NCBI RefSeq assembly: GCF_003100395.1
Contig: NZ_CP029210.1
Location: 2,356,001-2,420,000, forward strand
DNA length: 64,000 nucleotides
DNA from: Aquabacterium olei
Lineage (GTDB): Bacteria > Pseudomonadota > Gammaproteobacteria > Burkholderiales > Burkholderiaceae_C
Direction: 5' to 3'
Positions 47,108 through 50,765 of the stretch are shown here, piece by piece (the stretch's first letter is position 1; each line of letters begins with the position of its first letter). Position numbers and translations under genes: made by a program. The notes under the pieces are model-generated. The model worked only from the letters and a program-made list of their open reading frames with translations, was not told where the DNA came from and did not search any database.

Positions 47108-47995
47108 ATGTCCGCCCTCCTCGGCCTGCCCGCCCCGGCCAAGATCAACCTCTTCCTCCACGTCACCGGACGGCGCCCCGACGGCTACCACCTCCTGCAG
47201 TCCGTCTTCATGCTGATCGACTGGCAGGACAGCATCGACCTGACCCTGCGCAGCGACGGCTGCCTGCAGCGCCACGACCTCACGGTCACCCTGCCCGACG
47301 ACGACCTGTGCCTGCGCGCCGCCCGCCTGCTTCAGCAGGAAAGCGGCACCCCGCTCGGTTGCGACATCGGCATCCGCAAACACGTTCCCTGGGGCGCCGG
47401 CCTGGGCGGCGGCAGTTCGGATGCGGCCACGGTGTTGCTCGGCCTCAATCAGCTCTGGGGCCTGCAATGGTCGCGCACGCGTCTGGAAGCCCTGGCGCTG
47501 CGACTGGGCGCCGACGTGCCCTTCTTCGTGCGTGGCCGCAACGCCTGGGTGGAAGGCGTGGGTGAAGCCATCACGCCCATCGAACTGCCACACAGTGTGT
47601 TGAAAACGCCACTGGCCCTGCTGAAGCCGCCGGTGGCGGTGCCCACCGCGGCGATTTTTGGATCGCCCGCGTTGAAACGCGACACACCCCATGCTATAGT
47701 CGCAGTCTTTCTTGCAGCGCCCAAGCGCTTCGGCAGAAATGACTTGCAAGAGCCCGCAACGGCTTACAGCAACCAGATCAGCCAGGCACTTGAGATCATG
47801 CAGAACCGCTTCGGCAACAGCCGGATGACGGGTTCAGGCAGCACGGTGTTTTCATGGATCGACGATGACGCACAGCCTGAAAACGGTTTCCAGCCTTGCG
47901 ATGTGGGCCTGAATGATCCGGACTGGGTCGGTCGCGTGACACGCGGTCTGCCTCGGCACCCTCTGCTGGAGATGCTCGATCCGATCCGTGATTGA
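47108..47995 (+). CDS. ispE: 4-diphosphocytidyl-2-C-methyl-D-erythritol kinase IspE
   Basis: A 295-residue GHMP kinase of the non-mevalonate isoprenoid pathway. Lys12 in APAKINLFLHV, the ATP loop GLGGGSSDAA at 98-107, Asp136 in GADVPFF and the C-terminal MTGSGSTVFSW are conserved. It follows lolB by 5 bases. A strong sigma-70-like promoter lies inside its 3' third (47672-47700), pointing to tRNA-Gln and prs, as also described for the ispE-prs locus of E. coli. Confidence 0.94.
   Translation: MSALLGLPAPAKINLFLHVTGRRPDGYHLLQSVFMLIDWQDSIDLTLRSDGCLQRHDLTVTLPDDDLCLRAARLLQQESGTPLGCDIGIRKHVPWGAGLGGGSSDAATVLLGLNQLWGLQWSRTRLEALALRLGADVPFFVRGRNAWVEGVGEAITPIELPHSVLKTPLALLKPPVAVPTAAIFGSPALKRDTPHAIVAVFLAAPKRFGRNDLQEPATAYSNQISQALEIMQNRFGNSRMTGSGSTVFSWIDDDAQPENGFQPCDVGLNDPDWVGRVTRGLPRHPLLEMLDPIRD
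47672..47700 (+). promoter_or_regulatory. Promoter inside ispE, towards tRNA-Gln and prs
   Basis: TTGAAA (47672-47677), exactly 17 bp, TATAGT (47695-47700). Both hexamers are 5 of 6 matches to consensus. It is within the coding sequence of ispE, about 430 bases before tRNA-Gln. Confidence 0.6.
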
Positions 47996-48033
47996 ACAGC
48001 ATCGACAGAAGATGATGCAGAGACGCAACAGAC

Positions 48034-48063
48034 TTGCAAACGTCGCAAAAATCGACATACAAT
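48034..48063 (+). promoter_or_regulatory. tRNA-Gln promoter
   Basis: TTGCAA (48034-48039), 18-bp spacer, TACAAT (48058-48063), followed by the GC-rich discriminator CCGAGGC typical of stable-RNA promoters under growth-rate control. It is 73 bases upstream of the mature tRNA. Confidence 0.7.
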
Positions 48064-48135
48064 CCGAGGCTCTCGACAAGAGAACAGCTTACTAGGTCGC
48101 AGACAAGAACGTCAGTTCAAGACTGTGTCCTGAGT

Positions 48136-48212
48136 AGGGGAGTCGCCAAGTTGGTCAAGGCATCGGATTTTGATTCCGACATGCGAGGGTTCGAGTCCTT
48201 CCTCCCCTGCCA
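48136..48212 (+). tRNA. tRNA-Gln (anticodon TTG)
   Basis: A 77-base tRNA with encoded CCA. Acceptor stem AGGGGAG/CTCCCCT, D-stem GCC/GGC, anticodon stem TCGGA/TCCGA with loop TTTTGAT (anticodon TTG at 48170-48172, reading CAA and by wobble CAG), variable loop CATGC, T-stem GAGGG/CCTTC with loop TTCGAGT, discriminator G. All stems pair except one G-T. Confidence 0.95.
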
Positions 48213-48248
48213 GATTTCTTCTGTGCGGTCTTTGCTGATCACACAACA

Positions 48249-48338
48249 TCACCTGCCCTGAACCTTCCGCGAAGGCAGATGCCAACAGGCATCAACCGGA
48301 CAGGCTCCGGTTTCCTCAGGGGCAAGGTGACAGGGCAG
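48249..48338 (+). ncRNA. Structured prs leader RNA, candidate cis-regulator
   Basis: A closing stem of 13 pairs forms between 48249-48261 (TCACCTGCCCTGA) and 48316-48330 (TCAGGGGCAAGGTGA, with one A and one G bulged). It encloses three perfect hairpins: CCTTC-CGC-GAAGG (48263-48275), GATGCC-AACA-GGCATC (48278-48293) and AACCGGA-CAGGC-TCCGGTT (48294-48312), a compact four-way junction. The 5' strand has an exclusive alternative: CTGCCCTG (48253-48260) pairs perfectly with CAGGGCAG (48331-48338). The prs start is 42 bases further on. I recognise no Rfam class. Confidence 0.55.
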
Positions 48339-48379
48339 ATGGTCATTTCGTCATCATCTCCGTCCCCAACGGCCCGCCC

Positions 48380-49342
48380 ATGCTCTCCGACACCGTTCTC
48401 TTCACCGGCAACGCCAACCCGGCGCTCGCTCAGGAAATCGCCACCAGCCTCGGCATCTCTCTGGGCAAGGCCGCTGTCGGCCGCTTCTCGGACGGCGAGA
48501 CCACGGTCGAAATTCAGCAGAACGTGCGCGGTCGCGAAGTGTTCGTGGTGCAGTCCACCTGCGCCCCGACCAACGACAACCTGATGGAACTGCTGATCAT
48601 GGCCGACGCACTCAAGCGTGCATCGGCCCAGCGCATCACGGCCGTCATCCCCTACTTCGGCTACGCCCGCCAGGATCGCCGCCCGCGTTCCACCCGCGTG
48701 CCCATCTCGGCCCGCGTGGTGGCCAACATGCTGGAAGCCGTCGGCGTCAACCGCGTCCTGACCATGGACCTGCACGCCGACCAGATCCAGGGCTTCTTCA
48801 ACATCCCGGTCGACAACATCTACGCGTCGCCCGTGCTGCTGTCCGACCTGCAGGCCAAGAAGTACGAAGACCTGGTGGTCGTGTCGCCCGACGTGGGTGG
48901 CGTGGTTCGCGCTCGCGCGCTGGCCAAACAGCTGGGCTGCGATCTGGCCATCATCGACAAGCGTCGCCCCAAGGCGAACGTCTCCGAAGTGATGCACGTG
49001 ATCGGCGAAATCGAGAACCGCAACTGCGTGATCATGGACGACATGATCGACACCGCCGGCACGCTGGTGAAGGCGGCCGAAGTGCTGAAGGAGCGCGGCG
49101 CCAAGAGCGTGTACGCCTACTGCACGCACGCCGTGTTCTCGGGCCCGGCCATCGAGCGCATCAAGGCTTCGCACCTCGACGAAGTCGTGATCACCAACAC
49201 CATTCCGCTGGCCGAGGCTGCCAAGGGCACCGCCAAGATCCGCCAGCTGAGCACCGCATTCCTGTTTGCCGAAACCATCCGTCGCATCACCGACGGCGAC
49301 TCGGTGACATCCCTGTTTGCGGAACAGAACAACAACTTCTGA
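48380..49342 (+). CDS. prs: Ribose-phosphate pyrophosphokinase (PRPP synthetase)
   Basis: A 320-residue enzyme making PRPP from ribose 5-phosphate and ATP, the precursor of nucleotides, His, Trp and NAD. Class I features: [12 protein letters not shown], the ATP-binding [35 protein letters not shown] and the PRPP loop [16 protein letters not shown]. Length and C-terminus ([10 protein letters not shown]) match bacterial Prs. It follows tRNA-Gln with a 167-base leader that folds strongly. A terminator-like hairpin follows and partly insulates rplY. Confidence 0.96.
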
Positions 49343-49355
49343 TCCGTTTCTGCTG

Positions 49356-49381
49356 ACCGCGGCCTCGGCCGCGGTTTCTTT
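49356..49381 (+). terminator. Terminator or attenuator between prs and rplY
   Basis: Stem ACCGCGGC (49356-49363) and GCCGCGGT (49368-49375) around CTCG, then TTTCTTT. The interrupted T-run suggests partial termination. Confidence 0.7.
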
Positions 49382-49422
49382 CAGCGCCTGGTCGCGGGCG
49401 CTTTACCAACTTGGAGCATTCC

Positions 49423-50046
49423 ATGAAATTCGTCGCTTTTGAGCGCAATCTGCAGGGGACCGGAGCGAGCCGCCGCCTGCGCAATTCCGGCAAGACCCCG
49501 GGCATCGTTTACGGCGCCGGCAAGGCCCCGCAGAACATCGAGCTGGACCACAACGCCCTGTTCCACGCCATGCGCAAGGAACAGTTCCACTCGTCCATCC
49601 TGGACATGGAACTGAACGGCGAAGTGCAGAAGGTCCTCCTGCGCGACTATCAGATTCACCCGTTCAAGCGCCTCGTCCTGCACGTGGACCTGCAACGCGT
49701 GGACGCCACCACCCGCATCCGCAAGAAGGTGCCTCTGCACTTCGTGAACGAAGCAGAGTCGCAGGCCGTCAAGATCGACAAGTGCCTGATCAACCACGTC
49801 GTGACCGAACTGGAAATCGAGTGCCTGGCTGAACAGCTGCCCGAGTTCCTGACCGTCGACCTGAGCAACGTCGTCAAGGGCCAGTCGATCCACGTCGAAG
49901 ACCTGACGCTCGACAGCCACATCAAGGTCATCACCCACGGCCGCAAGAACCCGGTGATCGCCACTGTGGTCGAGCCGGTTGCCGAAGAAATCGTGGCTGC
50001 TCCGGTGGCTGCCGAGCCCGCCAAGGGCAAGAAGGGCAAGAAGTAA
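49423..50046 (+). CDS. rplY: 50S ribosomal protein L25/CTC
   Basis: A 207-residue long-form L25 (CTC/TL5 family) that binds 5S rRNA. The L25 domain (about 1-95) shows [24 protein letters not shown] and LHVDLQRVD; a second beta domain follows, and a Lys/Gly tail (KGKKGKK) ends it. ATG 49423 has GGAG 8 bases upstream; a TTG 4 codons earlier is unlikely. The order prs-rplY-pth is common in proteobacteria. Confidence 0.95.
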
Positions 50047-50129: not shown

Positions 50130-50765
50130 ATGATTCGCCTGTTTGTCGGCCTGGGCAACCCGGGCCCTGAATACGAAGACACCCGGCACAACGCGGGCTT
50201 CTGGTACATCGACGCCCTCGCCCGTCGCCTGGGCGTGCACCTGCAACCCGACCGGGCCTATCACGGGCTGGTGGCGCGCGCCAACCTGCCGCAAGGGCCG
50301 GTGTGGCTGCTGCAGCCCCAGACCTTCATGAACCTGTCCGGCAAGTCGGTCGCACCGCTGGCCCGCTTCTTCAAGATCAACCCGGACGAAGTGCTCGTGG
50401 CGCACGACGAACTCGACATGCTGCCCGGCCAGGTCAAGCTCAAGAAGGGTGGCGGCCACGCGGGCCACAACGGCCTGCGCGACATCCACGCGCAACTCGG
50501 CTCGGGCGACTACCACCGCCTGCGCCTGGGCATCGGCCATCCGGGCGTGAAGCACGAGGTGGCGGCCTATGTCCTGCGCAAACCGCCCCAACCCGAACGG
50601 GAAGCCATCTACAAGTGCATCGACCAGGCGCTGGACGCCACTGAGGCGCTGCTGTCCGGCGACATGGCCAAGGCGACGGCCACCATCCACGCTGGCCCGC
50701 AGCGCCCCAAGCCCCCGCGCAAGCCGCCTGCCGCCGACGGCAGTCCCTCGACATCCCAGACCTGA
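50130..50765 (+). CDS. pth: Peptidyl-tRNA hydrolase
   Basis: A 211-residue enzyme releasing tRNA from stalled peptidyl-tRNAs. All catalytic residues appear at the E. coli positions: Asn10, His20 ([11 protein letters not shown]), Asp93 ([10 protein letters not shown]) and Asn114 (GHNGLRDIH). A Pro/Lys-rich tail of about 20 residues is extra. A -10 box GATAAT (50113-50118) ends 11 bases before the ATG, giving a leader of only about 5 bases and no Shine-Dalgarno sequence. Confidence 0.95.

Follow-up and report, generated by a model that had tools for sequence, protein, structure and literature searches.

A structured leader upstream of prs in Aquabacterium with a remote Shine–Dalgarno-like sequence predicted to be masked and to be bridged to the start codon by a hairpin

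Introduction

PRPP synthetase, the product of prs, supplies the synthesis of purines, pyrimidines, histidine, tryptophan and NAD. In Aquabacterium olei the gene is preceded by a 167-nt leader that separates it from tRNA-Gln, raising the question of whether this RNA governs prs expression and, if so, how. Genes of purine and PRPP metabolism are where one would look for PRPP riboswitches, which are variants of ykkC included in Rfam. We know of no control of prs by a leader at the RNA level, and a literature search on such control found no report. A sequence-only reading of the window (the whole 64,000-nucleotide stretch of the A. olei genome analyzed here) had proposed that this leader folds into a multi-hairpin domain with a mutually exclusive pairing, in the manner of a riboswitch or protein-controlled leader. 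We compared the leader with those of its relatives within and beyond the genus and weighed that proposal against other readings.

Results

The prs leader and its locus

The genes and signals around the leader are as follows.

47108-47995, same strand as prs: ispE (from the list of open reading frames; named by an NCBIfam match above cut-off)
48034..48063, + strand: sigma-70-like promoter, TTGCAA, 18 nt, TACAAT (consensus scan; 1 found, 0.1 expected)
48136..48212, + strand: tRNA-Gln (TTG) (ARAGORN; Rfam RF00005, 61.9 bits over 48136-48209)
48380..49342, + strand: prs, ribose-phosphate diphosphokinase (PRPP synthetase), 320 aa (open reading frame; NCBIfam NF002320)
49423-50046, same strand as prs: rplY (NCBIfam match above cut-off)
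50130-50765, same strand as prs: pth (NCBIfam match above cut-off)

The prs product scored 513 bits against NF002320, for which the cut-off is 297. The promoter-like site 5' of tRNA-Gln likely drives a tRNA-Gln-prs transcript. A search of the + strand from 47950 to 48500 found no terminator-like site, and we therefore rejected an intrinsic-terminator attenuator, that is, a GC-rich hairpin with a U run directly after it, placed 5' of the start codon. Only one copy of the leader is present in its own genome, where the next best match has an E value of 0.095 over 22 nt; together with the finding that, within the genus, the strong matches to a covariance model of the leader fall on prs leaders or behind tRNA-Gln (see below), this led us to reject a repeat or mobile element.

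Predicted fold of the leader

The structural elements of the leader, all on the + strand, are listed in order.

48249..48330, + strand: P1 domain, a 13-pair closing stem around HP1, HP2 and HP3 (MFE structure)
48253..48260, + strand: 5' strand of the alternative helix, CTGCCCTG (sequence; type-A alignment)
48263..48275, + strand: HP1, CCUUC-CGC-GAAGG, 5 pairs (MFE; type-A alignment)
48278..48293, + strand: HP2, 6 pairs (MFE)
48294..48312, + strand: HP3, 7 pairs (MFE; present in the window and in its near-identical relative L010)
48324..48330, + strand: AAGGUGA, the leader's best anti-Shine–Dalgarno match, within P1 (duplex with the 16S tail)
48331..48338, + strand: 3' strand of the alternative helix, CAGGGCAG, which doubles as the P2 5' strand (sequence; type-A alignment)
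48333..48379, + strand: P2 hairpin (GGGC-AGAUGGU ... AUCAUCU ... GCCC), abutting the start codon (MFE; comparison of leaders)

The MFE of the leader (48213-48379) is -63 kcal/mol, with a z score of -2.98 and one of 200 dinucleotide shuffles at least as stable; a second shuffling script gave a z score of -4.3 over 60 shuffles. The closing stem of 13 pairs and the 5-, 6- and 7-pair hairpins that it was said to enclose all recur in the MFE structure at the same places, the stem being made of 6, 4 and 3 pairs separated by two single-base bulges. The competing perfect 8-pair helix between 48253-48260 and 48331-48338 is likewise present, and it can be extended by pairing ACCTT (48262-48266) with AAGGT (48324-48328). 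The structured feature extends beyond 48338, where the sequence-only reading had ended it: P2, which that reading lacked, lies directly 3' of P1 and runs to the start codon, its GGGC able to pair with a GCCC touching the AUG and a small hairpin (48360-48372) nested inside it. The folding core in the window's type of leader is thus P1, CACCUGCCC/GGGC-A-AGGUG, followed by P2.

An upstream open reading frame was also considered, as an AUG at 48339 sits 8 nt past AAGGUGA. It was rejected: eight other leaders have ACG or GUG in its place, the changed letters are often matched by a change in the P2 partner, and no upstream reading frame is conserved.

Unlike PRPP riboswitches, the leader and its relatives reach no Rfam threshold other than that of tRNA. 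With Rfam 15, only tRNA reached threshold in 47500-49000 of the window, and the same was true of 13 related loci.

prs leaders in Aquabacterium and beyond

We detected prs in 39 of 42 Aquabacterium genomes and read 38 distinct leaders from those 39. The leader L146 is identical to L009, L147 and L066 come from one genome, genome G002 has a second, partial prs copy that was left out of the set, and L164 (genome G308), whose contig stops inside the leader, was read and left out of the counts. A pattern search for two GGGC strands found the tandem P1/P2 layout in 32 of the 38, so the proposed structured prs leader proved to be a retained feature of most of the genus that lies outside Rfam. A further leader, L148, keeps the second GGGC strand and P2, while its P1 is broken and the first GGGC is lost; it was placed among the types by hand. 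The 33 leaders divide into types that we named A (16), B (4), B2 (5), S (2) and D (6). On a tree of the prs gene, a single branch separates each of B, B2, S and D from the rest, and A requires three changes; the leader types are clades or nearly so.

Five leaders lack P1 and P2. Two of them, L036 and L152, branch outside the other 36 on the prs tree, and the remaining three (L022, L033 and L035) carry a different stem, UGCCGCCC/GGGCGGCA followed by UUGGUUUUUU, with GCCC at the AUG in L022 and L035. In gene order, ispE and tRNA-Gln stand 5' of the leader wherever the loci of the genus reach far enough, and rplY lies 3' of prs in all 32 of the 38 loci with enough downstream sequence.

To search more widely we used R1, a covariance model built on type A. 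In the 42 genomes of the genus it gave 18 matches at E < 1e-14, namely 17 prs leaders and one contig-end leader behind tRNA-Gln; many leaders of types B, B2, S and D were missed or scored weakly. In a family sample of 299 genomes, 12 had a match at E <= 0.1. Three of these were prs leaders of the genus, two strong and one weak, and the nine matches outside the genus scored 22–26 bits (E 0.01–0.08 per genome), which we take as chance over 299 genomes. The family sample therefore held no strong match outside the genus, a result that covers type-A-like leaders only: because R1 is weak on the sister types, its silence elsewhere excludes nothing further.

Other genera have the same tRNA-Gln followed by different and often shorter leaders, in some cases of just 49–70 nt. 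Six leaders from neighboring genera (L055, L056, L063, L070, L072 and L074) carry TTCCC close to the 5' end and, ahead of a GTG start, GGAGGGAA, which could mask the SD there; this is another type of prs leader. Within about 80 nt 3' of tRNA-Gln, L060 and L061, and L042 too, have a strong hairpin ending in a U tail, and the tRNA and prs are for that reason probably separate transcripts in these three.

Conservation and covariation

Aligning the leaders and scoring covariation, a check called for by the sequence-only reading, set the type-A structure above all 500 shuffles on three measures: the covariation score (0.148, against 0.098 +/- 0.010 in shuffles), the proportion of cells paired (91.9% against 88.4%) and the number of cells changed on both sides (20 against 9.7). 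Two further measures within type A did not exceed the shuffles, 131 of 500 being as high for pairs changed on both sides and 364 of 500 for pair types. The signal comes from the inner hairpin and P2; at the position of HP2, most type-A relatives carry one freely covarying hairpin. Nine P1 core pairs and five HP1 pairs are invariant in all 16 type-A leaders, and P1 and HP1 show no covariation within the type since their letters never vary.

Between types, P1 has been re-made, from CCUGCCC/GGGC-A-AGG in A to CUUGCCC/GGGCAAG in B and UUGCCC/GGGCAA in D, the last with mismatches further out. P2 mostly retains GGGC...GCCC, and its inner pairs switch jointly between GAUG/CAUC and GACG/CGUC. Folding stability does not set the genus apart: the mean z scores of the types range from -1.6 to -2.8, L012 and L038 do not surpass their shuffles, and leaders from other genera, in two sets of eight, have mean z scores of -2.0 and -1.0.

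The prs start lacks an SD and has a remote anti-SD match

All 38 leaders of the genus lack an SD in the 22 nt that precede the AUG, where the best duplex with the 16S tail (a sequence found four times in the window's own genome) is -4.5 kcal/mol or weaker; in 33 of them it falls between 0 and -2.7 kcal/mol. By contrast, 39 of 43 leaders from other genera, taken with the start codon at the same position and including some that are identical, have an SD at the start, with duplexes of -5.5 to -11.4 kcal/mol. The four exceptions are L044, L046, L050 and L088, the last probably because its start is misplaced. A smaller control of 16 hand-picked loci from other genera (15 distinct leaders) had an SD throughout. 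The five leaders without P1 and P2 also lack an SD, so the genus can translate prs without the P1/P2 device.

The leader of the window does contain an SD-like sequence, too far upstream for normal use, as in a split ribosome binding site: AAGGUGA pairs with the 16S tail at -8.3 kcal/mol about 50 nt 5' of the AUG. In 15 of the 16 type-A leaders, including this one, the best anti-SD match is the P1 3' strand, (A)AGGUG(A), which starts 46–64 nt upstream. L011 and clade B have their best match at another place, and in most of D it is weak (-4.1); L148, for its part, retains GAGG. The SD core is predicted to be masked, with an unpaired probability of 0.16 in the window and a mean of 0.14 over the 33 leaders.

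What could bring this remote sequence into reach is P2. A GCCC lies within 12 nt of the start in 34 of 38 leaders of the genus, compared with 6 of 43 from other genera. If the P2 GGGC pairs with the GCCC at the AUG, the distance between SD core and AUG would shrink from some 35–60 nt to 4–10 nt in 27 of 33 leaders; in four clade-B leaders the bridged spacing is 12 nt by count, and in L032 and L034 the region around the AUG contains no GCCC. Folding with P1 left out predicts this bridge at more than 0.5 in 24 of 33 leaders, including the window, where GGG pairs at 0.90 with the 9 nt directly 5' of the AUG. The other nine leaders, eight at 0.01 or less and one at 0.28, are all of type A, the window's own type, in which the bridge is predicted in just 7 of 16.

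Two exclusive folds, or a processing element?

One rival to a bridged start is the switch first proposed for this leader, in which a ligand or protein would be sensed by a bistable RNA: the 5' GCCC would pair either with the P1 GGGC, leaving P2 closed on the AUG and prs off, or with GGGCAG of P2, leaving the start open and prs on. The second fold joins CUGCCC to GGGCAG; type A adds a helix between CACCUU of HP1 and AAGGUG. Both helices of this alternative are compatible with 95.8% of the type-A cells, and the near-complete invariance of the HP1 letters, which are fixed across type A apart from one loop base, is what would be expected if CACCUU served two partners. In eight of the 33 leaders, all of types A or D, the alternative takes an ensemble share of 0.43–0.95 when the leader is folded alone, and L148 can still form it despite having lost the P1 GGGC. 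Against this, the window reaches a share of 0.05 and clades B and B2 no more than 0.03. The values move considerably once 45 coding bases are included, that of L148 falling from 0.55 to 0.00.

Two further results argue against use of the alternative. Among the 16 type-A leaders, no pair of the alternative helix is changed on both sides, so the second fold lacks the covariation by which a riboswitch could be recognized. When we permuted the base pairs of P1 and HP1, at least 6 of 60 designs per type-A leader gave as favorable a competitor, and on this negative control we rejected bistability as a designed feature. Moreover, the SD-like element of the window is paired in both folds. The exclusive pairing is real in the letters, as had been claimed, and implies no ligand; we regard its use as a switch as unlikely.

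Alternatively, the structure could shield the 5' end left by excision of tRNA-Gln, acting in RNA processing or stability with no sensing. Such a role would fit the position of tRNA-Gln directly upstream, the placement of the scan's sole promoter-like site before the tRNA and the further hairpin that follows soon after the tRNA in many folds. It would need no fixed letters, however, yet the P1 and HP1 stems are invariant throughout type A; nor would it call for a P2 whose end lies at the AUG or close to it in many leaders, for a missing SD, or for more than the 49–70 nt with which some other genera manage after the same tRNA. We consider this role rather unlikely.

A separate hairpin upstream of rplY

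The region between prs and rplY contains a hairpin of its own.

49383-49402: hairpin CUGGUCGCG, AGCGCC-UGGUCGC-GGGCGCU, with apex CUGGUCGCGG (rplY starts at 49423)

TGGTCGC occurs within 420 nt 3' of prs in all 134 readable loci (143 were tried, and L067 duplicates L037), representing 124 distinct hairpin sequences. Other families of the order contributed 20 loci, and it is present in 19 of these (L169 lacks it, and L167 was missed by a second script). The covariation score of the stem, taken over 53 of the 134 chosen for diversity, is 0.394 against 0.111 +/- 0.019 in shuffles, none of 500 reaching it. In a class-level sample, 18 of 30 loci drawn from a degenerate-pattern search of 229 genomes, which is biased towards matches and produced many unrelated hits as well, have the hairpin before rplY. 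The E. coli rplY leader has GCUGGGUCGCC (GGGUCGC) before its start. The hairpin has no Rfam match. A terminator-like hairpin, ACCGCGGCC/GGCCGCGGT with the tail TTTCTTTC, occupies 49356-49382, between prs and the rplY hairpin, and similar hairpins are found in many relatives.

The available text of a 2024 review (PMC10931766) describes known L25 operator features as confined to species with a short bL25. The protein in the window is the long L25/Ctc form, of 207 aa, and the rplY hairpin is probably the L25 operator of proteobacteria with long bL25. Judged by sequence conservation, it is a stronger feature than the prs leader, being far more widely conserved.

An autogenous operator through which ribosomal protein L25 would control a prs-rplY operon from the prs leader is very improbable, even though rplY follows prs in every locus readable that far and E. 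coli L25 is known, from the available part of the same review, to regulate its own synthesis at an irregular hairpin, because rplY has a probable operator of its own directly upstream, terminator-like hairpins precede rplY in many loci, and strong R1 matches are missing outside the genus in the family sample although prs-rplY persists there. The prs leader resembles the E. coli operator, as that text presents it, in having a conserved hairpin before the start codon and a weak or missing SD; it differs in gene and in sequence, and Aquabacterium rplY has, besides its own hairpin, an ordinary GGAG (32 of 32 read).

Discussion

The leader probably controls how often prs is translated. As to the means, we tentatively favor, with confidence a little below even, a cis-acting structured leader that would set prs translation through a masked remote SD and a P2 bridge to the AUG. 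The transcript probably begins upstream of tRNA-Gln, and the tRNA would be excised from it. The remaining RNA would then fold into P1 with its inner hairpins, followed by P2, whose 3' end in the window abuts the start codon. AAGGUGA in the P1 3' strand would pair with CACCU, which reproduces part of the anti-SD, and the SD would thereby be masked. If the outer part of P1 opened, through competition by the ribosome or through a putative ligand or protein, the SD would be freed; with P2 folding away the nucleotides between SD and AUG, the 30S subunit could use the remote AAGGUGA as its SD. With P1 closed, initiation would be weak. Both the direction of this regulation and the existence of a signal are what we infer from the arrangement.

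By analogy, the leader may work like a split ribosome binding site, a class whose features it shows in part. In phage T4 genes 38 and 25, a hairpin between SD and AUG cuts the spacing from 22 to 5 and from 27 to 11 nt, as reported in the available portion of PMC3014915. The prs leaders are similar in having a distant SD and an intervening hairpin, provided that P2 closes on the GCCC. Unlike the T4 sites, they have an upstream multi-hairpin stem predicted to mask the SD as well, their bridge is not predicted in 9 of 33 leaders, and the prs case as a whole is a prediction. Our reading is weakened because the nine unbridged leaders all belong to type A and because a few other genera are without an SD as well.

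A fuller version of the masked, bridged start can be put forward, which we hold to be doubtful. In most of the genus, an essential gene would be translated via a remote masked SD, with 30–57 nt bridged by a dedicated hairpin; the masking stem and the bridging hairpin would share the GGGC/GCCC letters, and the leader would be closed, bridged or mis-paired according to a PRPP- or purine-linked signal.

If confirmed, the leader would provide a cellular, non-phage example of a ribosome binding site that is both masked and bridged by a hairpin, represented by some 30 natural variants. It would also point to a fast turnover of prs leaders, as other genera keep the tRNA-Gln-prs arrangement, differ in the leader and mostly have an ordinary SD.
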